Of a DNA stretch of 64,000 nucleotides, positions 2,101-15,418 are shown piece after piece. Positions within the stretch are counted from its first letter, which is position 1. Every line of letters starts with the position of its first letter. The notes beneath the pieces were generated by a model, which was not told the DNA's origin, ran no database searches, and saw nothing but the letters and a program-made list of their open reading frames with translations. The position numbers and the translations under genes were made by a program. The DNA is from Saccharospirillaceae bacterium (lineage in GTDB: Bacteria > Pseudomonadota > Gammaproteobacteria > Pseudomonadales > Oceanobacteraceae): assembly GCA_021208685.1 (NCBI GenBank), contig JAJOJJ010000002.1, positions 1 to 64,000 of the forward strand, given 5' to 3'.

Positions 2101-3012
2101 CTAATGATTCAATGCCAAGACACCAAGGCTGACCGCAGCCGCCGAGGTACGGTTTTCAACGCCCAGCTTACGGAATATCTGCTCCAGATGCTTATTCACT
2201 GTACGCGGGCTCATGGTCAGAATCTGACCGATGTCCTGATTGCTCTTCCCTCTTGCCAGCCACAGAAGAACCTCAGATTCACGTTCGGTAAGAGCAAATT
2301 GCTGGCGTAAATCCTGACAACGCAATGCATCATCTTCATCCATTAAGCGCAGTAAAAACTCACCCGGATAAGGCTGTCCGAGCAAGCGCAGCGTCAGCGT
2401 CTGACCACTGAGAACTAATTTAAACTGACTGTGCTTTTGGGGTGCCCTGCTCAGCCAGGCACCCGCCTGTTGCTGCAGCGCACGGGCTAACAATTCGCTG
2501 TTGCAATTTAACGCAGCCAATACCTCCAGCGCACGCTGGGTACACCAGAGTATTTCTCCATGCAGTGAACAGGAAAACGCTGGCTGCCCCAGTTCATTCA
2601 GCGCACCCCGCGCACTTTGTGTTTTCCGTGCATTATTAATATGAACCTGAGCGCGGGCGAGTAATTCATTCAGTCTGACCGGCTTGGTCAGATAATCCAC
2701 GCCTCCGCATTCCAGCCCCCGGACCACATGTTCGCTGTCACTCAGGCCTGTCATAAAAATAACGGGAATATCCTGAAGTTCGGCATTCTCTTTTAATGCC
2801 CGGCACGCATCAAAGCCGTCCATATTCGGCATAATGGCATCCAAAAGAATCAGATCCGGTACCATACGTTCAGCAATATTTAACGCCTGAATACCATCCA
2901 TGGCCACCAATACGGTATACCCTGCAGAACTGAGAGCCTCATTCAGCATGGTTAATGATTCGGCAGTATCATCGGCGATCAATACCAGCCCTTTGCTTTC
3001 AGACCGGATCAT
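2101..3012 (-). CDS. LuxR-family response regulator (REC + HTH)
   Basis: This is a 303-residue response regulator. An N-terminal receiver domain (residues 8-125) has acidic residues Asp14-Asp15, phosphoacceptor Asp58 in LLDAIMP and the conserved Lys110-Pro. A middle region (135-225) without a clear family follows. A LuxR/NarL-type helix-turn-helix occupies residues 238-300 (LTERESEVLLWLARG, RTVNKHLEQIF). The frame is open further upstream, but ATG at 3012 places the receiver domain correctly and overlaps the end of the kinase gene by 14 bases, indicating translational coupling. It is the obvious partner of the hybrid kinase and the likely activator of the divergent amide operon; that target is inferred. 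Confidence 0.9.
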   Translation of the reverse strand: MIRSESKGLVLIADDTAESLTMLNEALSSAGYTVLVAMDGIQALNIAERMVPDLILLDAIMPNMDGFDACRALKENAELQDIPVIFMTGLSDSEHVVRGLECGGVDYLTKPVRLNELLARAQVHINNARKTQSARGALNELGQPAFSCSLHGEILWCTQRALEVLAALNCNSELLARALQQQAGAWLSRAPQKHSQFKLVLSGQTLTLRLLGQPYPGEFLLRLMDEDDALRCQDLRQQFALTERESEVLLWLARGKSNQDIGQILTMSPRTVNKHLEQIFRKLGVENRTSAAAVSLGVLALNH

Positions 3013-6000
3013 TGGCAAGTACCTTCTGGCTGATGGATATAACAGATGCAAACTGATAATTGCGTACATAGTCGCGCAGCTGATTGATACAGCGCTCATC
3101 GGTTCCGGTATTAGCCATGCGCTGCAATACCAGTTCAATACCTCCGATATAGCCGATTTCAGCCATGGCCTGCAGTTCCCGTGCTTCTGCAACCGGAATA
3201 AGATGCCAGTCGAAACTGTCATTAAAGGCCGATACACAGCGCTCTGAGGTTACCGGCTCGTTGCGGTAATACCATTCTAACTCCAGAATGCCGGCTATTT
3301 TATCCAGCAGGGCCTGATCACGGATGGGCTTAATAAGATAACCATCATTTAATTGTTCCGTGGCAGAGGCAGCTCCCCCCTGATTAGCGGCTGACTGGCG
3401 ATCTTCGGCATCGGCCGATACCATAATAACCGGCGTGCTAATGCCGCGGCTGCGCAACTGCCGTAACAATTCCCAGCCCGTCATCCCCGGCATGGATATA
3501 TCCAGTAAAAAAATATCCACACCGGCACCGTCAAAGGATTCAAGACAGGAAAATCCGTCCGGCGCTTCCAGCACCACAAACCCCAGCGGGGTTAATATTT
3601 CACTGATTAATCCCCGGTGTGAGGCATCGTCATCCACCACCATTACCGTTTTTTGAGCGCCTTTAAGGCCGCTGATCTGTTGCGCCGGCAGTGATCGTTT
3701 AGACGATTTGGCTAGACTGGAAAGCATCATCGACAAGCGGAATACACTGCCCTTGCCCGGTTCGCTGCTGAGGGTAATTTCGCCGCCCATAATATCAGCC
3801 AGCAACTGGCTTATGGTAAGCCCCAGTCCGGTACCCGGCATTTGCGGCAATCCGGGTTTACGGATACGCTCAAATGGCTGAAATATGCGCTGGCATTCAG
3901 CCGCTTCAATCCCGAAACCGGTATCGGTAACCGTAAATTCCGCGACCTGACTGCGATAGCGTACCGCCAATGTCACCGAACCCTGCTGAGTGAATTTAAC
4001 CGCATTGGATAACAGGTTAATCAGAATCTGACGCAGGTGTTTCTCATCGGTTGCGACCATTTCCGGTAAATGAGCACAGGGCTGATAGATAAACTCAACG
4101 CCTTTACTTTCCGCCTGCAAGCGAAACATATCCACCAGTTCCTGCAATAAGTGACCAATAGCAACTTCATCACGGCGGATTTCCAAGCGCCCGGCTTCAA
4201 TCCGGGAAATATCCAGCAAACCTTCAATTAGATCGGCCAGATGATCACCGCTGCGGCGGATAAGACTGATTTTATTGCGCTGCCCCGGCAGTAACTGGTT
4301 GTCTTTTTCCAACAGCTGGGCATAGCCGAGAATAGAATTCAGCGGGCTGCGTAACTCATGGCTGATACCGCCCAGATAACGGCTTTTAGCCTGATTAGCC
4401 GCCTCAGCCAGTTCTTTCGCCTGCTGCAAGGCACGATCAGTTGCTTCGTGAGCCGTAATCTCACGGGTTAACAATTCCGTTTGCCGTACCGATTCATCCA
4501 GAGCAAACTGCCGGCTTTCATTCGCCAGCACAAATAACCATATCAATACACCAACAATAATCAGTAATAACAGATACACCTGGATTAACGTGGTTCCGAC
4601 CAGATGCTGACCAGAATCGGCGACAGGTACCTGAACATAAACCAGCCAGAATAATACCGCGACAATTCCGGCTATTAACAATAATAAACCACTGAACTGC
4701 ATCAGCCGCGGGTTCATTTTTTGTACCAGCCAGAACGGTAACAGCGTTTCCAGCAGCGTTTGCATTTGCTCACTCAAGCGCGCCCTGTCTTTACACTGAT
4801 CGTGGCAACGGGACTCCAGCGTGCAGCACAAAGAGCAGATATGGCCTTTATACGCCGGACACTGCGCAATATCTTCCGCATCAAAGTGGTTATCACACAC
4901 CACGCATCGTACCGGCACTGCGGCGACATCATGAGCGAGGGGAATAATATCGCGCGCCAGATAAAAACGGCCACGGGTCACAATAGCCAGCAGAGGTGCA
5001 GTAAAAAATGCAGTTGCCAATGCCAGATAAGGCGATAATGCCTGCGGTAAAGGACCCAGCACACCGACATAACCGATAATACCAACCAGCGAAGCCAGCA
5101 ACATTGCACCAAAACCAACCGGATTAATATCGTATAAATAGGCGCGTTTGAATTCGATATGCTTAGGACTTAAACCAAGCGGTTTATTAATAATCAGATC
5201 GGCAACCAGTGCACCGACCCAGGCGACCGCTACATTAGAATAAATACCGAGAATATGTTCCAACGACTGATAAACACCCAGAACCATCAGCAGCAAAGCA
5301 ATCATGACATTAAACACCAGCCAGACAACCCGTCCCGGATGACTGTGTGTCAGTCGTGAAAAGAAGTTGGACCAGGCAATAGAACCGGCATAGGCATTGG
5401 TCACGTTGATTTTGATCTGACAGACAATGACAAAAATACCGGTTAATGCCATAACCACCATGGGCGAATCACTGATATAACCGAAAGCTACCCGGTACAT
5501 TTGCGTTGGATCAGCCGCATCCAGCACAGACAAACCATGCTGTAATGCCAGAACAGCCAAAAAGGAGCCCGCCAGAATTTTCAGAGCGCCCACCAGAATC
5601 CAGCCAGGCCCCCCCCCCAACAGAGCCAGCCACCACCGCAGCTTGTGGCGTGGTTCAGGTTCTGGCAGGAAGCGTAAAAAATCCACTTGCTCACCGATTT
5701 GCGCAATCAGCGAAAAAACGACCGCAGAAGCCGCACCAAAGTAGATCAGATTAAATTTTCCGCCATCTTCTGGTGCATCACCGGCATCACCATCCGGAAT
5801 ACCCATGGTGGTACTGACTCCCGGATAATTCATCCACTGTTCGGCCGCTGACCATTCATGCCAGAGGATAAAAATAAAAGGCAGCAGTTGCAGCACCAAC
5901 CACAATGGCTGACTCCATAACTGAAATCGACTGATAAACGTGATGCCATGAGTAACCAGAGGAATAACGATCAGAGCACTGAGCAAATAACCTGCGGCCA

Positions 6001-6442
6001 ATGGCAATCCAAATAAAATCTCCATGGCTGAAGCCATGATGGCTGCTTCAAGGGCAAAAAATATAAAGGTGAACGATGCATAAATCAGCGATGTAATGGT
6101 CGAGCCAATGTAACCAAATCCGGCACCACGGCTGAGCAGATCAATATCAACACCATAACGGGCAGCATAATAGCTGATGGGAATCGCGGTCAGGAATATG
6201 ATGGCAGACACCACCATGATGGCGCTGACGGCGCTGTTAAAGCCATACATCAGCGTAACTGCTGCCCCAATGGCTTCCATGGCTAAAAATGAAATCGCGC
6301 CTAAAGCCGTATTGGATACACGCGCAGCCGACCATCGCCGTGCGCTTTTGGCCGTAAAGCGCAGGGCGAAATCTTCCAGCGTCTGGTTTGCTACCCAGCG
6401 GTTGTAGCTGCGCCGGGTTTTATACACCACTTGCTCAGACAT
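2999..6442 (-). CDS. NCS1 permease-fused hybrid sensor histidine kinase
   Basis: This is a 1147-residue membrane sensor. Residues 1-500 form a nucleobase:cation symporter-1 (purine-cytosine permease) type domain with about 12 hydrophobic segments. Residues 513-550 form a cysteine cluster (C513, C516, C528, C536, C539, C540, C546, C550) that probably binds metal. Two more membrane segments lie near 583-602 and 617-640. HisKA follows with His695 (ISHELRSP), then HATPase_c (N813 region, DTGFGIE, GTGLGL) and a receiver domain with Asp981 and Lys1038. Residues 1060-1147 are an uncharacterised tail. ATG at 6442 is preceded by gagagagg; an in-frame TTG at 6505 would add 21 residues. The signal is probably a nitrogenous compound, given the divergent amide operon (inference). 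Confidence 0.9.
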   Translation of the reverse strand: MSEQVVYKTRRSYNRWVANQTLEDFALRFTAKSARRWSAARVSNTALGAISFLAMEAIGAAVTLMYGFNSAVSAIMVVSAIIFLTAIPISYYAARYGVDIDLLSRGAGFGYIGSTITSLIYASFTFIFFALEAAIMASAMEILFGLPLAAGYLLSALIVIPLVTHGITFISRFQLWSQPLWLVLQLLPFIFILWHEWSAAEQWMNYPGVSTTMGIPDGDAGDAPEDGGKFNLIYFGAASAVVFSLIAQIGEQVDFLRFLPEPEPRHKLRWWLALLGGGPGWILVGALKILAGSFLAVLALQHGLSVLDAADPTQMYRVAFGYISDSPMVVMALTGIFVIVCQIKINVTNAYAGSIAWSNFFSRLTHSHPGRVVWLVFNVMIALLLMVLGVYQSLEHILGIYSNVAVAWVGALVADLIINKPLGLSPKHIEFKRAYLYDINPVGFGAMLLASLVGIIGYVGVLGPLPQALSPYLALATAFFTAPLLAIVTRGRFYLARDIIPLAHDVAAVPVRCVVCDNHFDAEDIAQCPAYKGHICSLCCTLESRCHDQCKDRARLSEQMQTLLETLLPFWLVQKMNPRLMQFSGLLLLIAGIVAVLFWLVYVQVPVADSGQHLVGTTLIQVYLLLLIIVGVLIWLFVLANESRQFALDESVRQTELLTREITAHEATDRALQQAKELAEAANQAKSRYLGGISHELRSPLNSILGYAQLLEKDNQLLPGQRNKISLIRRSGDHLADLIEGLLDISRIEAGRLEIRRDEVAIGHLLQELVDMFRLQAESKGVEFIYQPCAHLPEMVATDEKHLRQILINLLSNAVKFTQQGSVTLAVRYRSQVAEFTVTDTGFGIEAAECQRIFQPFERIRKPGLPQMPGTGLGLTISQLLADIMGGEITLSSEPGKGSVFRLSMMLSSLAKSSKRSLPAQQISGLKGAQKTVMVVDDDASHRGLISEILTPLGFVVLEAPDGFSCLESFDGAGVDIFLLDISMPGMTGWELLRQLRSRGISTPVIMVSADAEDRQSAANQGGAASATEQLNDGYLIKPIRDQALLDKIAGILELEWYYRNEPVTSERCVSAFNDSFDWHLIPVAEARELQAMAEIGYIGGIELVLQRMANTGTDERCINQLRDYVRNYQFASVISISQKVLANDPV

Positions 6443-6748
6443 AGCCTGTTCTGCCTCTCTCAGCCGATCATCAGCTGATCTGCCGATCAAAAGTCCGGCG
6501 TTCAATAGAAAGACATCCCGTCCCTAAAGCACCTGCTTCAATGCAGAAAAGATCCCTCTTTGTGCCAGCCCGAATGCTCTTTCGTTCAGGCATCAGACTC
6601 TAATCACATCCCGTGCCAACTGCTATGCGTTAAATAACGTAGGTGACTGGTGCAATCCGCTGATGTTTATCAAACACCCGCTGCCGCATCCTGAGCAGGC
6701 TTCAGTTCAACTCAAACCGTACTCACTCAGTCACCAAGAGGCCTGACT
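6443..6748. promoter_or_regulatory. Divergent control region between the sensor system and urtA
   Basis: These 306 bases separate the minus-strand kinase/regulator genes from the plus-strand urtABCDE-amidase operon, so both promoters should lie here. I could not assign convincing -35/-10 boxes. No sigma-54 promoter with canonical GG and GC elements at 10-base spacing was found; the closest minus-strand candidate (ttggcacgggatgtga) lacks the TTGC box. The role is inferred from gene layout only. Confidence 0.45.
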
Positions 6749-8002
6749 ATGCATTCAAAATCCAAAACATTCCGCGGCATGCTCCGCCGTCGTTTCCTGC
6801 AAAATCTGCTGGCCGTACCTGCAGCCGTTATGCTCGCTAATGCCAGCCTGACAGCCCATGCCGACAGCGCTAATACCACAGGACTGGCAGTCACCGACAA
6901 AACCGTTACCGTAGGCATTCTGCACTCCGTCACCGGTACGATGGCCATCAGTGAAACCGGTTCCGTTCAGGCTGAAAAACTGGCCATTGAACAGATTAAT
7001 GCCATGGGCGGTGTACTTGGCCGAAAAATTGAATACATTCAGGAAGATGGTGCCAGCGACTGGCCAACCTTTGCTGAAAAATCCAAAAAACTTCTGATCA
7101 AAGATAAAGCCGCTGCCGTATTTGGCTGCTGGACATCAGCCTCGCGCAAAGCCGTTTTACCCATTTTCGAACAATACAACGGCATGCTTTATTATCCGAC
7201 CTTCTATGAAGGTCTTGAGCAGTCGCCGAACGTAATTTATACCGGCCAGGAGGCAACACAGCAGATTCTTGCAGGCATTGACTGGGTCGTAAAAGAAAAG
7301 GGAGCCAAGTCCTTCTTCCTGCTGGGTTCCGATTATATCTGGCCACGCACCTCCAACAAAATTGCACGCAAGCATATTGATAAGCTCGGACTTAAAGTCA
7401 GTGGCGAAGAGTACTACCCTCTGGGACACACTCAGTTCAACTCCGTTATCAACAAAATAAAACTGAAAAAGCCTGATGTCATTTTTGCATCGGTGGTCGG
7501 TGGTTCCAACGTTGCATTTTATAAGCAACTTAAAGCGGCCGGCATTGATATGACAAAAGAAAAACCTCTCGTACTGACCATTTCGGTTACTGAAGATGAG
7601 ATCCTCGGCATTGGTGGCGAAAATATTGAAGGCGCATACGCCTCAATGAAATATTTCCAGAGCCTGACCAACGACAACAACAAAAACTTTGTTAAAGCCT
7701 TTAAAGAACGCTGGGGTGACGACATCGTTATTGGTGATGTGACTCAGGCAGCCTACCTGGGCCCATGGCTGTGGAAAGCCGCTGTTGAAAAAGCCGGTTC
7801 ATTTGACATTGATAAAGTTCGTGCGGCATCGCCGGGCATCGAACTCAAAACCGCTCCGGAAGGCTACGTACGGATTCATGAAAACCACCACTTATGGTCA
7901 AAAACACGCATTGGTAACGCTCAGGCTGATGGCCAGTACAAGATTGTGTACGAAACCAAAGATCTGATCGAACCAAATCCATTCCCTGCCGGTTACCAGT
8001 AA
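6749..8002 (+). CDS. urtA: Urea/short-amide ABC transporter substrate-binding protein
   Basis: This is a 417-residue periplasmic binding protein of the UrtA/FmdD branch of the branched-chain amino-acid binding family. The N-terminus carries a twin-arginine-like signal (LRRRFLQNLL, residues 12-21), a hydrophobic stretch and an AHA cleavage site near residue 38. The mature part starts with the typical VTVGILHSVTGTMAISE segment, followed by YYPTFYEG and FLLGSDYIWPRTSN, which are highly conserved in UrtA. It captures urea in cyanobacteria and amides/urea in Methylophilus (FmdD). The downstream amidase and formamidase genes, and the lack of urease, favour amides here. It is first in a ten-gene operon. 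Confidence 0.92.
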   Translation: MHSKSKTFRGMLRRRFLQNLLAVPAAVMLANASLTAHADSANTTGLAVTDKTVTVGILHSVTGTMAISETGSVQAEKLAIEQINAMGGVLGRKIEYIQEDGASDWPTFAEKSKKLLIKDKAAAVFGCWTSASRKAVLPIFEQYNGMLYYPTFYEGLEQSPNVIYTGQEATQQILAGIDWVVKEKGAKSFFLLGSDYIWPRTSNKIARKHIDKLGLKVSGEEYYPLGHTQFNSVINKIKLKKPDVIFASVVGGSNVAFYKQLKAAGIDMTKEKPLVLTISVTEDEILGIGGENIEGAYASMKYFQSLTNDNNKNFVKAFKERWGDDIVIGDVTQAAYLGPWLWKAAVEKAGSFDIDKVRAASPGIELKTAPEGYVRIHENHHLWSKTRIGNAQADGQYKIVYETKDLIEPNPFPAGYQ

Positions 8003-8059: not shown

Positions 8060-8986
8060 ATGTTTGCTGACTATTCCATAACCGAACTGACCTCAATTTT
8101 TGCAATGCAGGGGTTTGCCGGACTGATTTTATTTTCTGTATTTGTACTGATGGCATTGGGCCTGGCCATTATTTTTGGCCAGATGGGCGTTATTAATATG
8201 GCGCACGGCGAATTTATGATTCTTGGTGCCTACGTTACTTATCTGACTTCGAGTCTTTTTGCTGAGTACCTTCCATCGGTCTATGGCAGTTACTTTTTTA
8301 TTGCCATGATATTTGCCTTTATTGTCACCGCCGCACTGGGGGCATTGGTTGAATGGTCTATTATCCGCCATCTTTATAAGCGCCCACTGGACACATTACT
8401 CGCTACCTGGGGCCTTAGCCTGATTTTACAGCAGCTGTATCGCACCGTATTCGGAGCACGCGAGGTCGGCGTAACCCTGCCGGACTGGCTGATGGGTTCA
8501 TATGCACTGAGTGACAGCATCGAAATTCCGATTAACGGCTTATTTGTTATGGGTCTGACCATCTTTATTACCGTTGGCGTTGCATTGATGATGCAGAAAT
8601 CCCGCCTTGGTAAACAAACACGTGCGGTGGTTCAGAACCGTCCCATGGCTGCGGCAGTGGGTATTAATACCGAAAAGGTTGACCGTATGACCTTTGCACT
8701 GGGTTGTGGTATTGCCGGTATTGCAGGTTCCGCTTTTACCATGATTGGTTCAACCGGCCCGACGTCTGGCCAGCTGTATATTGTCGATACTTTCCTGGTG
8801 GTTGTATTTGGTGGCGCATCCAGCCTGATTGGTACGGTTGCTTCCGCATTCACCATTTCTCAGGCGCAGTCGACGATGGAATTTTTCCTCAGCGGATCGA
8901 CCGCCAAAGTTCTTACACTTCTGACCGTGGTAGGCATTCTGATGCTGCGTCCACAGGGTCTTTTCTCACTGAAAATTCGCCGCTAG
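8060..8986 (+). CDS. urtB: Urea/amide ABC transporter permease UrtB
   Basis: This is a 308-residue inner-membrane permease of the LivH/UrtB type, one of two channel subunits of the importer. Seven to eight hydrophobic segments are visible, with family motifs GQMGVINMAHGEFMILGAY near residues 45-62 and TLLATWGLSLILQQ near 112-125. ATG at 8060 is chosen over the longer frame at 8030 because it has a ggag site 8 bases upstream and the longer frame would run into the hairpin spacer. It is co-transcribed with urtC, 9 bases downstream. Confidence 0.92.
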   Translation: MFADYSITELTSIFAMQGFAGLILFSVFVLMALGLAIIFGQMGVINMAHGEFMILGAYVTYLTSSLFAEYLPSVYGSYFFIAMIFAFIVTAALGALVEWSIIRHLYKRPLDTLLATWGLSLILQQLYRTVFGAREVGVTLPDWLMGSYALSDSIEIPINGLFVMGLTIFITVGVALMMQKSRLGKQTRAVVQNRPMAAAVGINTEKVDRMTFALGCGIAGIAGSAFTMIGSTGPTSGQLYIVDTFLVVVFGGASSLIGTVASAFTISQAQSTMEFFLSGSTAKVLTLLTVVGILMLRPQGLFSLKIRR

Positions 8987-8995
8987 GGGTATGTT

Positions 8996-10195
8996 ATGAC
9001 AAAGATCCAGGCATTTATCGGGCGCTATCAGCTCAGTCATTTACTGATTCTCGCCGCTCTATTGTTAGTTGTTATGCCGTTAGCGATGGATATTTTCCGC
9101 CTCAATCTGGTTGGTAAATATCTCACCTATGCTTTCGTCGCAGTCGGTTTGGTTTTGTGTTGGGGTTATGGCGGTATTCTCAGCCTTGGTCAGGGAGTTT
9201 TCTTTGGTCTTGGCGGTTATTGCATGGCAATGTTCCTGAAACTGGAGGCCTCATCCCCGGAGCAGACGGCCATCCAGTCAACACCAGGGATTCCGGATTT
9301 TATGGACTGGAATCAGTTAACAGCACTGCCATGGTTCTGGGAGCCATTCCACAGCTTTGGATTTACCTTACTGGCCGTTATTCTTATTCCTGCACTGTTT
9401 GCTTTTATTATTGCCGTAGCAATGTTCAAGCGTCGGGTTGGTGGTGTTTACTTTGCCATTATTACTCAGGCCATCGCTGCCATTCTGACGATTTTAATCA
9501 TCGGTCAGCAAGGCTATACCGGTGGTGTTAATGGCATTACCGACCTGCGTACCCTGCACGGCTGGGATATCCGCACCGACAGCGCCAAGTACATTCTGTA
9601 CTTTATCAATGCATTCCTGCTGATTGGTTGTCTGTTCGCTGCGCGCTACATTATTAAAAGCAAACTTGGCCGCTTACTCGTTGCCATGCGTGAACGGGAA
9701 GACCGCGTGCGCTTTTCCGGTTACGACGTATCCAGCTTCAAAATCTTTATTTACTGCATTGCTGCCGTGTTCTCTGCGATTGGCGGAGCCATGTTTACCC
9801 TTCAGGTTGGCTTTATGTCGCCATCGTTTGTCGGCATCGTTCCTTCGATTGAAATGGTTATTTTCTGTGCCGTCGGCGGCCGTCTGTCGATTCTCGGAGC
9901 GGTGTATGGAACCCTGCTGGTGAACTGGGCCAAAACCAGTTTCTCGGAATCCTTCCCGGAGCTGTGGCTGTTTGCTATGGGTGCTCTCTTTATTGGTGTG
10001 GTAATGGCATTTCCGAATGGCCTGGCCGGTCTTTATCAGACCTATGTTGAACCACGTCTTCAACGCTTTAAGAAGTCATCAGATCCGGCTCTTGCGTCAG
10101 ACATGGATGCTTTGAAAACGGCTGAAATAAAACCCAATAAGACCAAAGATACTGAATCTGCTGCAGAGGAGTACAGTCATGCTGGAAACCAATAA
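8996..10195 (+). CDS. urtC: Urea/amide ABC transporter permease UrtC
   Basis: This is a 399-residue inner-membrane permease of the LivM/UrtC type. It should pair with UrtB to form the translocation pore. It shows about nine hydrophobic segments and the typical cytoplasmic EAA-like loop (LLVAMREREDRVRFSGYDV, near residues 225-243). UrtC-specific features include the CWGYGGILSLGQG segment. The C-terminal 40 residues are hydrophilic. Its end overlaps urtD by 17 bases, which indicates translational coupling. Confidence 0.92.
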   Translation: MTKIQAFIGRYQLSHLLILAALLLVVMPLAMDIFRLNLVGKYLTYAFVAVGLVLCWGYGGILSLGQGVFFGLGGYCMAMFLKLEASSPEQTAIQSTPGIPDFMDWNQLTALPWFWEPFHSFGFTLLAVILIPALFAFIIAVAMFKRRVGGVYFAIITQAIAAILTILIIGQQGYTGGVNGITDLRTLHGWDIRTDSAKYILYFINAFLLIGCLFAARYIIKSKLGRLLVAMREREDRVRFSGYDVSSFKIFIYCIAAVFSAIGGAMFTLQVGFMSPSFVGIVPSIEMVIFCAVGGRLSILGAVYGTLLVNWAKTSFSESFPELWLFAMGALFIGVVMAFPNGLAGLYQTYVEPRLQRFKKSSDPALASDMDALKTAEIKPNKTKDTESAAEEYSHAGNQ

Positions 10196-10943
10196 ATCCA
10201 TTCCGAAGAAAGATTTTGTTCTGAGCATTGAAGGTCTGACGGTTTCTTTCGACGGATTTAAAGCCGTTAACGACTTGTCACTGTATGTCGAAGAGCAGGA
10301 AATCCGCGTCATCATTGGTCCGAATGGTGCCGGTAAAACCACGGTCCTTGATTTAATCTGTGGCCGGACCAAAGCCACAGAAGGTTCAATAAAATTTAAA
10401 GGAAAGGAACTGACAAAATTAAACGAACACCAGATTGTACACGCCGGTGTTGGTCGAAAATTTCAGAACCCATCCATTTATGAAGACCTTACCGTGTTTG
10501 AAAACCTTGAACTTTCATATCCGCGGGGACGCAATGTCTGGGGAGCGCTGACCTTTCGCCGCGATGCTGAAGTGGTAGCCAAAGTTAAGGAAATTGCCGA
10601 CATGATATTCCTCGGTGACAAGCTCGATATGAACGCCGACCTGCTCAGTCATGGTCAGAAGCAATGGCTGGAAATCGGCATGCTGCTGATTCAGGACCCT
10701 GAGCTTCTGATGCTGGATGAGCCCGTCGCCGGAATGTCGGTATCTGAACGTAAACAAACGGCAGAATTATTACAGCGCATTACCAAAGATCGTTCAGTGC
10801 TGGTTATTGAGCATGACATGCAATTTGTCGCGGATATCGCCGATCGGGTAACGGTTCTGCACCAGGGGCAGGTGTTATCTGAAGGGTCTATGGAGAGGGT
10901 TCAGTCAGACCCTAAAGTCATTGAAGTTTATCTCGGCCACTGA
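10179..10943 (+). CDS. urtD: Urea/amide ABC transporter ATP-binding protein UrtD
   Basis: This is a 254-residue cytoplasmic ATPase of the LivG/UrtD type. The Walker A motif is GPNGAGKTT (near residues 47-55), the signature region is LLSHGQKQWLEIGM and Walker B is LLMLDEP, with the H-loop in VIEHDMQFV. The SHGQKQWLEI signature is the form typical of UrtD, as opposed to LSGGQ in LivG. It powers import together with UrtE. It overlaps urtC and sits 21 bases before urtE. Confidence 0.92.
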   Translation: MLETNKSIPKKDFVLSIEGLTVSFDGFKAVNDLSLYVEEQEIRVIIGPNGAGKTTVLDLICGRTKATEGSIKFKGKELTKLNEHQIVHAGVGRKFQNPSIYEDLTVFENLELSYPRGRNVWGALTFRRDAEVVAKVKEIADMIFLGDKLDMNADLLSHGQKQWLEIGMLLIQDPELLMLDEPVAGMSVSERKQTAELLQRITKDRSVLVIEHDMQFVADIADRVTVLHQGQVLSEGSMERVQSDPKVIEVYLGH

Positions 10944-10964
10944 GCTTAAACACGGAGTTATTGT

Positions 10965-11654
10965 ATGTTTCAAGTATCCGATTACAGCGTTGCTTACGGT
11001 CAGAGTGATGTTATCCGCAATCTGAACCTGAGTATTAAACCGAAAGAAATTGTTGCGATTCTGGGACGAAACGGAATGGGTAAAACCACGCTGATGAAAT
11101 CATTAATCGGCATGATTCCCAGTAAAGAAGGCAGCCTTACTCTGGATGGTAAGGAATTATCCGGTTTAAAAAGCTATGAACGAGTAGGTGCAGGCATTGG
11201 CTTTGTTCCTCAGGGACGGATGATATTTTCTACTATGACCGTCTCGGAAAATATCGAAACCGGATTAACCAGCACAGGTGAACGCAAAATCCCATCAGAC
11301 CTGTACAGTCTATTCCCGGTACTGGATGAAATGAAAAACCGCCGTGGCGGTAATTTATCCGGGGGCCAGCAACAACAGCTGGCCATTGCCCGCGCACTGG
11401 CAAGCAATCCAAGCGTGTTATTACTGGATGAGCCAACAGAGGGTATTCAGCCATCCATTATTAAAGAAATGGCACGCACACTGAAGCAAATCCGCACACA
11501 GCGCAATTTATCCATTCTTGTCTCTGAACAGGTACTGAGTTTTGCGCTGGATATTGCCGATCGCATTCTGGTAATTGAAAAAGGCGCCATTGTTCTGGAT
11601 GTACCGGTTGCTGAAGCCGATCAGGCAACCATTACCCGCTATCTGTCTGTTTAA
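10965..11654 (+). CDS. urtE: Urea/amide ABC transporter ATP-binding protein UrtE
   Basis: This is a 229-residue ATPase of the LivF/UrtE type, the second nucleotide-binding subunit. Walker A is GRNGMGKTT (near residues 34-42), the signature motif is [15 protein letters not shown] and Walker B is [10 protein letters not shown]. The [16 protein letters not shown] form is characteristic of UrtE. It is followed 10 bases later by amiE, which ties the transporter directly to amide hydrolysis. Confidence 0.92.
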
Positions 11655-11664
11655 GGAGCTCATT

Positions 11665-12711
11665 ATGCGACACGGTGATATTTCAAGCAGCAACGATACC
11701 GTCGGTGTGGCTGTGGTGAACTACAAAATGCCACGCCTGCACAGCAAAGAGGATGTTCTGGAAAATGCGAAAAAAATTGCCGACATGATCCTTGGTATTA
11801 AACAGGGATTACCCGGCATGGATCTGATCGTTTTTCCTGAATACAGCACCATGGGAATTATGTATGACCATGATGAAATGATGGCTACCGCCACAACCAT
11901 TCCCGGTGACGAAACCGCTGTTTTTTCTGCGGCCTGTCAGAAATCGAATACCTGGGGAATTTTTTCCCTGACCGGTGAACGGCACGAAGAACATCCACAC
12001 AAAGCACCCTACAACACGCTGGTTCTGATCAATAATCAGGGTGAAATTGTCCAGAAATACCGGAAGTGCCTTCCCTGGTGCCCGATTGAAGGCTGGTATC
12101 CCGGAGACCGAACCTACGTCAGCAATGGTCCTAAGGGGATGAAGATAAGCCTGATTATCTGTGACGACGGCAACTACCCGGAAATATGGCGTGACTGCGC
12201 CATGCGTGGTGCCGAATTAATTGTCCGTTGTCAGGGCTATATGTATCCGGCTAAAGAGCAACAGGTGATGATGGCTAAGTCCATGGCCTGGGCCAATAAC
12301 TGCTACGTAGCCGTGGCCAACGCCAGTGGCTTTGATGGCGTATATTCCTATTTCGGCCACTCCGCCATTATTGGTTTTGACGGACGTACTCTGGGCGAAT
12401 GCGGCGAAGAAGACATGGGCGTGCAATACGCTCAGCTTTCGGTATCGCAAATCCGCGATGCCCGGAAAAACGATCAGTCACAGAATCATTTATTTAAATT
12501 ACTGCACCGCGGCTATACCGGTATGTTCAATTCCGGCGATGGTGAAAAAGGCATAGCAGACTGCCCATTTGAATTTTATCGCAGCTGGGTAATGGATGCA
12601 GAAAAAACCCGTGATCAGGTTGAGGCTTTAACACGCGACACTATTGGTGTGGCCGAGTGTCCGGTGGGTAATTTACCGGGTTCAGAACAATCTCTGGAAG
12701 CCGGGTCCTGA
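11665..12711 (+). CDS. amiE: Aliphatic amidase (EC 3.5.1.4)
   Basis: This is a 348-residue cytoplasmic nitrilase-superfamily amidase that hydrolyses short aliphatic amides such as acetamide and propionamide to the acid and ammonia. It is nearly colinear with Pseudomonas aeruginosa AmiE, starting [19 protein letters not shown]. The catalytic triad falls at the same positions: Glu59 (FPEYS), Lys134 (KYRK) and Cys166 ([11 protein letters not shown]). ATG at 11665 follows aaggag; a longer frame overlapping urtE is rejected. The 20-30 C-terminal residues differ most from known AmiE. Co-expression with the importer suggests that transported amides feed this enzyme. Confidence 0.96.
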
Positions 12712-12718
12712 GGTTCTC

Positions 12719-13786
12719 ATGGTATTCATCAACGACAGACTGGCCAGCAACAGCGCTTCTCCTTCATCAGCGCCGCTGTCTGGTTTCGCTTTTGATCCTG
12801 AACGGGTTGAGCATCAGCTGCGCGAACAGATCATTGGCCAGGACCGGGCTATCAGCAGTATCCGGCGTCAGTTGAATATTATTAAAGCCGGACTGAATGA
12901 CAGCAACCGTCCGCTATTAACGGCTTTATTTGTCGGTGATACAGGCGTTGGCAAAACGGAAATGGTGCGCTGCATTGCCCGGGCAATCCACGGCCGTGAA
13001 GAGGCATTCTGCCGTATCGATATGAATACTCTTTCACAAAGTCATTACAGCGCTGCTATCACCGGTGCACCTCCGGGATATGTTGGCAGTAAAGATAATC
13101 TGACGCTGCTGAACCAGGAGTTAATTGAGGGCAGTCTCACGCGTCCCGGCATTGTACTGTTCGATGAAATTGAAAAAGCCAGTAACGATGTTGTACGCAG
13201 TTTGATGAATATTCTGGATAACGGCACGTTAATGCTCGCCTCCGGGCAAAAATTACTCTCATTCCGCAACACACTGGTGTTCATGACCAGCAACGCCGGT
13301 TCCCGTGAATGGTACAGCCGACGCTGGCATCAATGGCTGCCGCAATCTTTGCAGAACCGGTTACGCAAACGTATCCGCCTTCAGGCATTGCAGCGTCGCT
13401 TTGATCACGAATTTCTTAACCGCATTCACTGTACTGAATTTTTCGCACCACTGAATACTTCTGCGCTGCCCGATATCGTACAGATTCAGATTCAGGCGCT
13501 GAATCAGCGTCTGCGCAAACGCGGCATCCGCATTGAATTCAGCGCCAATGCCATACGCTGGCTGTGTTCAACAGGCTTTGAACAACATTTTGGTGCGCGT
13601 GCCATTCAGCGTTTATTCAACCAACAGATACTGGCACCACTGGCCGTCTGCCTGCTTGACCAGCACAGAGATCAGGAACCACTGACGCTGATTGCCGATG
13701 TACAGCAAGGACAATTGATTTTTACCCAAGGGCAGCAGCCCGACTCTGGCATTTCGCCATACCCAAAGGCCGGACAGGCCATATAA
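12719..13786 (+). CDS. amiB: AmiB-like Clp-family AAA+ ATPase of the amidase operon
   Basis: This is a 355-residue single-ring AAA+ ATPase similar to the second ATPase domain of ClpA/ClpB. Walker A is GDTGVGKT (73-80), a pore loop GYVG lies at 120-123, Walker B is VLFDE (146-150), sensor 1 is TSNAG (190-194) and sensor 2 is GARAIQR (292-298), followed by the small ClpB D2-like domain. It lacks a Clp N-domain and an obvious ClpP-binding loop. Its size and position directly after amiE match AmiB of the Pseudomonas amidase operon, whose role is unresolved. ATG at 12719 uses a gagg site overlapping the amiE stop. It may remodel the amidase or transporter (inference). Confidence 0.8.
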   Translation: MVFINDRLASNSASPSSAPLSGFAFDPERVEHQLREQIIGQDRAISSIRRQLNIIKAGLNDSNRPLLTALFVGDTGVGKTEMVRCIARAIHGREEAFCRIDMNTLSQSHYSAAITGAPPGYVGSKDNLTLLNQELIEGSLTRPGIVLFDEIEKASNDVVRSLMNILDNGTLMLASGQKLLSFRNTLVFMTSNAGSREWYSRRWHQWLPQSLQNRLRKRIRLQALQRRFDHEFLNRIHCTEFFAPLNTSALPDIVQIQIQALNQRLRKRGIRIEFSANAIRWLCSTGFEQHFGARAIQRLFNQQILAPLAVCLLDQHRDQEPLTLIADVQQGQLIFTQGQQPDSGISPYPKAGQAI

Positions 13787-13796
13787 GGAGAAGACC

Positions 13797-15029
13797 ATGA
13801 CTGACACCATCATCAAGATTGATCTGAATAAATCCGCGTATGAGCACGATAATGTGCACAACCGCTGGCATCCGGATATTCCTATGGTTGCCACAGTAAA
13901 GCCCGGCGATGATTTTATTGTTGAGTGCTTTGACTGGACCGGCGGACAGATTGCGAATAACGATGACGCTTCTGATGTGCGCGATGTTGATCTTACCAAG
14001 GTGCACTTTCTCTCCGGCCCGATTTCTGTAGAAGGTGCACAACCCGGTGATCTTCTGGAAGTTGATATTCTGGATATCGGGGCATTTGCTGAACAGCAAT
14101 GGGGTTTTAACGGCTTTTTCTCCAAGCAAAACGGCGGCGGTTTTCTGGATAATCATTTTCCCGAAGCGCAGAAATCCATCTGGGATTTTAACGGTATTTA
14201 TACCAAATCCCGTCATGTTCCCGGCGTCGAGTTTGCCGGTATTCTGCATCCCGGCCTGATTGGTTGCCTGCCATCACGCGAAATGCTGGATATGTGGAAT
14301 AAGCGTGAAAAGGAATTATTTGATACCGACCCTGAACGCACACCACAACTTGCCTGCCTGCCGTATGCAGAAACGGCTCATATGGGCCGTATGAAAGGCG
14401 ATGAACGCAATTCCGCTGCGGCAGAAGGTGCCCGCACCGTACCACCGCGTGAACACGGCGGTAACTGCGATATTAAAGATTTAACCCGTGGAGCAAAAGT
14501 GTACTTCCCGGTGTATGTCGACGGTGCCGGCTTATCCGTTGGCGACCTGCACTTCAGCCAGGGTGATGGTGAAATCACCTTCTGTGGTGCCATCGAAATG
14601 GCCGGCTGGATTCACATGCGGGTTAATCTGATTAAAGATGGCATGGCCAAATATCAGATTAAAAATCCGATTTTCAAACCGAGCCCGATGGTACCGAAAT
14701 ACGATGACTACCTGATCTTTGAAGGTATTTCGGTCGACGAAAACGGCAAACAACATTATCTGGATACCAGTATTGCTTACCGTCAGGCCTGTCTGAATGC
14801 CATTAAATATCTGACCCAGTTTGGCTACAGCGAGGCACAGGGCTACGCGATCATCGGTTGTGCGCCGATTCAGGGTCATATCAGTGGCGTGGTGGATATT
14901 CCGAATTCCTGTGCAACATTATGGCTGCCGACGGATATTTTTGAATTTGATATTCAGCCGAATGCCAACGGGCCGGTTAAACATCTGGATGGGTCGGTTG
15001 ATATTCCGAAAGCTCCGGATCTTAAATAA
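13797..15029 (+). CDS. fmdA: Formamidase FmdA (acetamidase/formamidase family)
   Basis: This is a 410-residue cytoplasmic enzyme of the FmdA_AmdA family (PF03069), which hydrolyses formamide to formate and ammonia. The length matches Methylophilus formamidase. Conserved blocks include FDWTGGQI near residue 42, VHFLSGPISVEGAQPGD near 69-85, the HGGNCDIKDL segment (thought to hold active-site or metal ligands in the family) near 220-229, and HFSQGDGEI near 248-256. It lies 10 bases after the AmiB-like gene with an aaggag site. Having both an AmiE-type amidase and this unrelated formamidase in one operon should broaden the range of amides used. Confidence 0.93.
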   Translation: MTDTIIKIDLNKSAYEHDNVHNRWHPDIPMVATVKPGDDFIVECFDWTGGQIANNDDASDVRDVDLTKVHFLSGPISVEGAQPGDLLEVDILDIGAFAEQQWGFNGFFSKQNGGGFLDNHFPEAQKSIWDFNGIYTKSRHVPGVEFAGILHPGLIGCLPSREMLDMWNKREKELFDTDPERTPQLACLPYAETAHMGRMKGDERNSAAAEGARTVPPREHGGNCDIKDLTRGAKVYFPVYVDGAGLSVGDLHFSQGDGEITFCGAIEMAGWIHMRVNLIKDGMAKYQIKNPIFKPSPMVPKYDDYLIFEGISVDENGKQHYLDTSIAYRQACLNAIKYLTQFGYSEAQGYAIIGCAPIQGHISGVVDIPNSCATLWLPTDIFEFDIQPNANGPVKHLDGSVDIPKAPDLK

Positions 15030-15043
15030 AGAGGAAGCCGCAT

Positions 15044-15418
15044 ATGCCACTGTATGATTACAAATGTCCGCAGCATGGTGTGTTTCAGGAACTGGCGAGC
15101 ATGGAAAAGCACGATCAGCCAGCACATTGCCCGCACTGCCAGACGCTGTCGGCACGCATTGTTATGCTGCCACCGCATCTGGCCAGAATGCTGAAGGAAA
15201 CCAGAGATGCAATGGAGCGGAATGAAAAGGCGCAACATGAACCGGAAGTCATGACCAGCAGCCAGTATCACGAACGTGAGCAGGAAAAGCTGGCGCGCCA
15301 TCAGCATAAACATCGCAATGGTTGCGGCTGTGAAACTAAACGCCGCAGCAATCTGATGTATACCGCTGACGGAAATAAGATGTTCCCCGGCATGCGGCCA
15401 TGGATGATCAGCCACTGA
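15044..15418 (+). CDS. fmdB: FmdB-type zinc ribbon regulatory protein
   Basis: This is a 124-residue protein with an N-terminal FmdB-family zinc ribbon (residues 1-40). In most FmdB proteins the two knuckles are CxxC and CxxC. Here the first is C8-P-Q-H11 and the second C29-P-H-C32, so one ligand may be histidine. Residues 75-110 are charged and His-rich and contain a second Cys pair, CGC. FmdB was proposed to regulate formamidase expression in Methylophilus; its biochemical role is unknown. It is the last gene of the operon, 14 bases after fmdA, and a terminator follows 29 bases later. Confidence 0.85.
   Translation: MPLYDYKCPQHGVFQELASMEKHDQPAHCPHCQTLSARIVMLPPHLARMLKETRDAMERNEKAQHEPEVMTSSQYHEREQEKLARHQHKHRNGCGCETKRRSNLMYTADGNKMFPGMRPWMISH

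Follow-up and report, generated by a model that had tools for sequence, protein, structure and literature searches.

What a permease-like protein is doing at the front of a sensor kinase is the question raised by a 64,000-nt window of DNA from a Saccharospirillaceae bacterium (contig JAJOJJ010000002.1, positions 1 to 64,000). On its minus strand, a gene at 2999-6442 encodes a hybrid sensor histidine kinase of 1147 aa consisting of a permease-like input domain, a cysteine (Cys)-rich module, two further transmembrane (TM) helices (TM13-14), a kinase and a receiver, and this gene diverges from an operon for amide and urea acquisition. The architecture, fold kinship, gene pairing, co-occurrence and a conserved operator-like site were computed directly, and the system is probably a transceptor-type two-component system for urea or short-chain amides that switches on the adjoining urt/ami/fmd operon.

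The kinase open reading frame runs from an ATG at 6442 to a stop at 2999, with a possible alternative start at TTG 6505. All of its parts lie on the minus strand: a divergent NCS1/LeuT-fold domain (residues 1-500; 4943-6442), the eight-Cys module (513-550; 4793-4906), the two extra helices (approximately 578-604 and 611-640; 4523-4711), Pfam-matched HisKA (685-751, with H695) and HATPase_c (798-905) domains (3728-4390), and a Pfam-matched receiver (933-1049; 3296-3646) whose phospho-acceptor Asp lies within the motif LLDISMP beginning at residue 979. Hydropathy maxima of the extra helices are at 585-602 and 619-638, and in the structural model the helices span 578-604 and 611-698, the second extending as one long helix. 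The catalytic set is complete (H695, N box, G box and receiver Asp). The original prediction, made from the DNA alone, had described a permease domain of approximately 500 residues, an eight-Cys cluster, two extra helices and a complete kinase-receiver in this order, and profiles, model and alignment bore out each part.

The NCS1 label required proof because Pfam found nothing in residues 1-684 even at E ≤ 10, and the NCS1 profile PF02133 matched neither the window protein at E ≤ 10 nor anything in its own genome. Profile-profile comparison with 12 NCS1 proteins (hhalign) gave 99.4% and an E value of 1e-21 over 391 columns. An AlphaFold model of residues 1-700, built on a 64-row alignment, had a predicted local distance difference test (pLDDT) score of 88.1 and a predicted template modeling (pTM) score of 0.87. 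Mhp1 had been proposed as the structure to compare, and the best matches of the model among solved structures (Foldseek, Protein Data Bank) were CodB (7.6e-10) and Mhp1 (2.5e-9); a Protein Data Bank search with the bare profile matched kinases alone. One kinase-less relative (L042) is above the PF02133 cut-off (31.8 bits vs. 23.5), and the three other standalone relatives in that scan, like L130, were not matched. The window protein has no Pfam match to the SSS (SLC5) family, and NCS1 folds outrank SLC5 folds in Foldseek. The permease domain is a divergent cousin within the NCS1 superfamily, sharing common ancestry and fold.

The end of the kinase gene overlaps by 14 nt a gene for the cognate response regulator (2101-3012, minus strand; 303 aa, REC and LuxR/GerE domains), about which the original prediction was silent. 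Divergent from the kinase on the plus strand, as had been claimed, is the amide/urea operon, which begins with a substrate-binding protein of the UrtA/FmdD type (urtA, 6749-8002; TIGR03407, 557 bits, over cut-off), FmdDEF being the name of the short-chain amide importer. Downstream are the urtBCDE permease and ATPase subunits (8060-11654), named by order and tblastn conservation rather than by family search, the aliphatic amidase AmiE (11665-12711; NF009802, 712 bits, over cut-off), a ClpB-D2-like (AmiB-like) AAA ATPase (12719-13786), and the formamidase FmdA with an FmdB-type zinc ribbon protein (13797-15418; NF045496, 770 bits; NF053663 and TIGR02605 over cut-off).

The association of these genes was followed through three samples: 80 named loci, which are the best 80 of 578 confirmed and biased to close relatives, and less biased samples of the class and the phylum. 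The named organism nearest to the window is Thalassolituus, a representative of the fmd type. The permease-Cys module occurs in 52 of 398 sampled phylum genomes and 37 of 213 genera; 56 of the 58 phylum genes were taken with ~10 kb on either side, the other two being the window itself and L041. UrtA was near 46 of these 56 loci, FmdA near 37 and UreC near 9, and urt, fmdA or ureC was within ~10 kb at 53. One of the 46, L218, in which the binding protein is 28% identical and lies close to a kinase-less homolog that is itself distant, was counted as a negative; the other two negatives, L181 and L216, are contig ends. A homolog of the response regulator is present at 53/56 phylum loci and at 76/80 named loci, and UrtA and FmdA are at 74 and 61, respectively, of the best 80 of 578. 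In the class sample, the module was found in 18 of 369 genomes (20 matches, with weak fragments in G122 and G166 dropped), and urt, fmdA or ureC was nearby at 11 of 19 regions. The neighborhood survey that had been suggested as a check therefore upheld the link to amide/urea genes in the phylum sample, with the class sample at 11/19. FmdA was over cut-off in 40 of the 398 phylum genomes (75 with any match), and the module was present in 39 of those 40 vs. 13 of the 358 others (Fisher p = 1.4e-41, for lineages that are not independent). UrtA was found in 172 of 398 phylum genomes, so that many urt operons occur in genomes lacking the module; control of all canonical urt operons by this system was rejected on that count, set against a module in at most 52, and on second urtA copies without the operator. 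Plasmid records matching the module number 528, of which 342 are from Klebsiella. Two of the plasmid records (L128 and L132) carry the kinase, the regulator, urtABCDE, a gene annotated formamidase and the operator.

The predicted response regulator operator, also absent from the original prediction, is at 6622-6645 (core 6626-6641; position weight matrix score 22.2), centered ~115 bp before the urtA ATG. Regions from 147 loci were tried (11 chosen because urt was known there), and in 126, including 73/80 named and 41/55 phylum loci, kinase and urtA diverge within 2.5 kb; 10 regions over 560 nt were dropped, and the remaining 116 gave 93 nonredundant regions. The dyad TACG-N8-CGTA occurs in 64 of the 93; in five sets of dinucleotide shuffles, no dyad exceeded 16. 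The refined matrix, with the inverted-repeat consensus ATACGTCA-nn-TGACGTAT, finds a site in all 93, a result whose null was simple shuffles and the training sequences themselves; the dyad shuffle and held-out tests are stricter, and with held-out halves, 91 of 93 regions scored above the 99th percentile of dinucleotide shuffles. The site center is a median of 114 bp from the urtA start (interquartile range 103-124) and 163 bp from the kinase start (interquartile range 119-232), start positions being extrapolated from matches. The tighter spacing to urtA suggests that the site, judged by position, is part of the urtA promoter. A search of 6440-6760 for a sigma-70 promoter found no match.

Control regions separate the site from urtA genes in general. 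None of 60 urtA upstream regions in module-less genomes scored ≥9 (maximum 1.7), nor did any of 20 second urtA copies in genomes with the fmd-type module (maximum 8.6); of 10 further urtA places in module genomes, five scored ≥10.5 and five ≤2.4. Three of the five high-scoring places (G738, G575 and G728) are ~40, 58 and 243 kb, respectively, from the nearest kinase gene. Where the kinase does not adjoin urtA, a site was found before urtA at six loci (L124, L208, L209, L210, L214 and L246) and also before ureD in L246. L047 has one site before amiE and one between fmdA and the kinase, and L033 has a site between the kinase and a standalone permease. In Sinorhizobium meliloti 1021, the pSymB copy diverges from a urtABCDE operon ~1.7 kb away, and an operator-like site scoring 24.9 immediately precedes urtA. 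In the window's own genome (4,005,911 bases), the strict 16-mer, a pattern written to include the window site, occurs once, at 6626-6641, 108 bp before urtA; matches with ≤2 mismatches number 36 vs. 43 for a reversed-pattern control. A weak operator-like site (G000:C26:93451-93474, L330; score 5.8, below threshold) is ~400 bp before the match of a second, canonical UrtA in the same genome.

In the mechanism that we propose, urea or a short-chain amide would bind the LeuT-fold site of the NCS1-like domain, and the resulting bundle movement would pass through the cytoplasmic Cys module and TM13-14 to a coiled coil, setting the kinase; in the model, TM14 continues without a break as the helix that reaches residue 698 and runs into HisKA. 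Phosphate would then be transferred to the LuxR-type response regulator, which would bind the inverted repeat ~115 bp before urtA and turn on uptake and hydrolysis through urtABCDE, amiE and fmdAB, with urease as a further target in other species. We infer the ligand class, urea and short-chain amides, from the neighboring genes, urease in one subset and formamidase or amidase otherwise, which fused and kinase-less forms have in common; this evidence does not separate urea from formamide or acetamide. The direction of signaling and any transport by the domain are likewise predicted. The neighborhoods, the FmdA statistics and the common operator support both the reading as a transceptor and the association with the amide/urea operon, as the original prediction had advanced.

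Several observations weigh against this reading. No site scoring ≥11 was found at 17 of the 36 loci bearing a kinase or fused enzyme in a scan of 42 loci mostly picked as atypical (L041, L168, L175, L206, L213, L212, L215, L032, L039, L040, L120, L030, L031, L037, L123, L127 and L043), six loci with a kinase-less permease alone have no site beside the permease, and some sites in the scan are not clearly before a target gene. Eight of the 19 class loci are without urt, fmdA or ureC nearby (L026, L029, L030, L031, L032, L037, L039 and L040), some of them stopping at contig ends and L029 continuing the urt locus of L028. For two standalone permeases, Streptomyces L240 and Arthrobacter L243, no neighbor is annotated as an amide/urea gene. 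The Fisher p is too small, given the shared ancestry of the lineages. Finally, the true sensor could be the binding protein that belongs to the importer.

A rival reading is that the permease-like domain is a scaffold that reads the state of UrtABCDE, or liganded UrtA, without itself binding solute, and the residues of the putative solute site bear on it. The original prediction had pointed to the substrate and Na+ sites of Mhp1 as the positions to compare, and the window protein was mapped by alignment through L219 to Mhp1, in which A309, S312 and T313 in TM8 are ligands of the Na2 site. The Asn N318 is kept as N349 (64/64 rows), Q121 is replaced by E132 (64/64) and W117 by F128 (60/64, with L in 4). 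The Na+ site is not kept: S312 and T313 correspond to K344 and I345, each in 64/64 rows, and A309 to C341. Because this site is not conserved, Na+ coupling appears unlikely from the alignment. The Na2 site of CbrA likewise contains a lysine (K196; PMC13022988, in excerpt), and in the window protein K344 falls on an Mhp1 Na+ ligand; by analogy, a sodium-independent or proton-linked site would be the natural inference. E132, K344, N346 and N349 are invariant (64/64 rows), and the surrounding motifs recur in 8/8 further standalone permeases. A separate feature of TM1 is at residues 55-56 (6275-6280, minus strand): E56 is present in 62/64 rows, all fused forms, the remaining two rows being kinase-less, and D55 is present in 11/11 kinase-less forms seen; E56 vs. 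D55 is a possible sequence marker of receptor vs. transporter.

Pairing of the kinase with urt genes at many loci and loss of the Na+ site are both what a scaffold would predict. However, the polar residues are also kept in kinase-less permeases, as a working solute site would be, and L033 and L047 have the kinase, no complete urt operon found nearby and a standalone permease beside fmdA/amiE. We consider the scaffold unlikely, though it is the best placed of the alternatives to direct sensing of urea or short-chain amides.

Less probable again is that the palindrome belongs to another regulator, such as a general nitrogen regulator, and that the two-component system controls something else. 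The 17 of 36 kinase-bearing loci at which the scan found no motif would fit such an arrangement, but the motif is absent from 60/60 urtA upstream regions of module-less genomes, the genome holds a single copy of its strict form, and an inverted repeat is as expected for LuxR-type regulators (cf. CrbR; PMC5715377, in excerpt).

The Cys cluster had been presented as an uncommon feature of the junction between permease and kinase and as a possible metal or redox gate. Its eight Cys, at 513, 516, 528, 536, 539, 540, 546 and 550, are all kept in 63 of 64 aligned rows, the exception being L042, in which only 513, 516, 536 and 539 remain. The same four-Cys pattern is found in L129, L239 and L241, whereas the full set of eight is present in the kinase-less L033 and L047. 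Five remain in Streptomyces L240, and the actinobacterial L130, L242, L243 and L244 have lost most. The loss of Cys as a block of four suggests two zinc-finger-like metal sites of four Cys each, 513/516/536/539 and 528/540/546/550. When the module was modeled alone (pLDDT 78.7, pTM 0.56), a fold search with it gave nothing significant (best E 0.33), with PHD, RING, FYVE and LIM fingers among the best matches. Because kinase-less permeases carry the cluster wholly or partly, it belongs to the permease family and not to the kinase junction, and it is most simply read from its distribution as a zinc-finger-like cytoplasmic tail of that family. A metal site thus appears likely from the Cys pattern, and the redox gate found no support; a kinase-specific redox gate was rejected on the presence of the cluster in kinase-less relatives.

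That the Cys cluster is instead the primary metal or redox input, with the permease domain a mere anchor, is marginally less probable than control of the palindrome by another regulator. Conservation of all eight Cys in 63/64 rows is in its favor, but the cluster is whole or partial in kinase-less permeases, the pattern fits structural zinc fingers (with nonsignificant fold matches), and the recurrent neighbors that were tested for are amide/urea genes, metal and redox genes not having been searched for. Least probable by some way is a working nucleobase or hydantoin transporter with a kinase attached, which the NCS1 kinship and the RefSeq names of several standalone relatives (allantoin or cytosine permease) would suit, but for which the recurrent neighbors are the wrong genes (urt, fmd, ami and ure), the annotated records viewed name no nucleobase gene beside family members (no search aimed at such genes was made), and the W117 and Q121 positions of Mhp1 are F128 (L in 4 rows) and E132. 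Nucleobase or hydantoin sensing was accordingly set low: the NCS1 kinship in the original prediction holds, and urea or short-chain amides fit the gene context better than the nucleobase- or hydantoin-type ligand that it had allowed.

The best-studied transporter-fused kinases have SLC5 domains, and how transporter motion drives the kinase remains open (PMC7918813 and PMC13022988, in excerpt). These SLC5/STAC kinases, among them CbrA, CrbS/MxtR and RpuS (from a listing, PMC9100948), likewise join a LeuT-fold transporter domain and a (hybrid) histidine kinase in one chain, and the partner of CrbS is a LuxR-family protein whose operator is an inverted repeat (PMC5715377, in excerpt), as predicted for the window system. 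The window protein differs from them in being nearest to NCS1 and in having a Cys-rich module and two TM helices before the kinase, and its system differs in the predicted urea/amide ligand class and in the existence of kinase-less sister permeases. Pfam found no STAC family match at residues 501-684, a result that includes no direct STAC-profile comparison; the model has there the Cys module, short helices and two long helices. The protein would work like CbrA and CrbS yet stands outside the SLC5/STAC family, as an NCS1-type variant of the transporter-fused kinases. The membrane part of 5TMR/S-component-fold histidine kinases also shares a transport-protein fold (PMC11109136, in excerpt), but theirs is that of the ECF S component and not the LeuT fold. 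With the NCS1 transporters Mhp1 and CodB, the window protein shares the fold, the 391 aligned profile columns and the conserved Asn; unlike them, it has no PF02133 match, K/I in place of S312/T313, a fused kinase and a Cys-rich C terminus to the permease. DUR3 urea transporters (SLC5), which are LeuT-fold urea carriers, are among the Foldseek matches, but they match more weakly (6.7e-06 vs. 7.6e-10 for CodB), belong to another family and are kinase-less.

The window operon is of the kind formed by short-chain amide/urea importers with formamidase in Methylophilus methylotrophus and in the Bradyrhizobium blr0968 cluster. Amide uptake has been suggested for urt-fmd clusters (PMC3098086 and PMC13209695, in excerpt), and Mills et al. 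1998 is cited in PMC10781810. A term search of the excerpted texts of these three articles found no two-component system for the urt-fmd operon, and literature searches limited to open-access PubMed Central titles and abstract beginnings listed no paper on an NCS1-type sensor kinase or on a two-component regulator of urt-fmd operons. The NCS1-type kinase seems to have arisen independently, from a different transporter family, and was found in 52 of the 398 phylum genomes. Because its ligand class and a sharply defined operator are predicted and sister carriers without a kinase exist, receptor and transporter states become directly comparable, and the system offers a test of how pumps turn into sensors. 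It also provides a testable function for permeases labeled allantoin, cytosine or hypothetical beside urease or amidase genes.

Standalone permeases adjoin urease genes in L042, Acinetobacter L129 and Klebsiella L239, formamidase in L033, Methylovirgula L047, Moraxella L241 and Tsukamurella L242, and an aliphatic amidase-AAA-acetate-CoA ligase cluster in Arthrobacter L244. In a 75-row tree, a single branch (support 100/99) separates the ten kinase-less permeases from the rest, consistent with a single fusion or a single loss. Further outputs are a PAS-GGDEF-EAL protein (L039), a PAS-PAS-kinase-receiver (L040) and a receiver-less kinase (L032, cyanobacterial L120 and L215). We put at about an even chance the broader proposal that an NCS1-derived urea/amide permease family with a zinc-finger-like tail diverged a single time into receptors and carriers that lack a kinase, that the receptor was plugged into hybrid kinase, plain kinase, PAS-kinase-receiver and GGDEF-EAL outputs, and that, with a lysine replacing the sodium site, it constitutes a new class of nutrient receptors.

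Individual members of the family have features of their own. In Klebsiella pneumoniae, a kinase-less relative annotated cytosine permease (L239:6956-8563) follows ureG of a urease cluster and, by its position, may be a urea carrier. On a Methylovirgula plasmid (L047:16679-18900), a standalone permease is beside a fragment matching UrtA residues 16-138 only, as though the permease had taken the place of the ABC importer. In L039 (7849-11520, genome G137), the permease-Cys module is fused to PAS-GGDEF-EAL, which suggests that urea or amides may control a cyclic-di-GMP enzyme; the same genome holds the PAS-kinase version L040. In the window itself, downstream of the response regulator gene, 670-1830 on the minus strand encodes a membrane protein that, from its translation alone, resembles a Na+/phosphate-type cotransporter.

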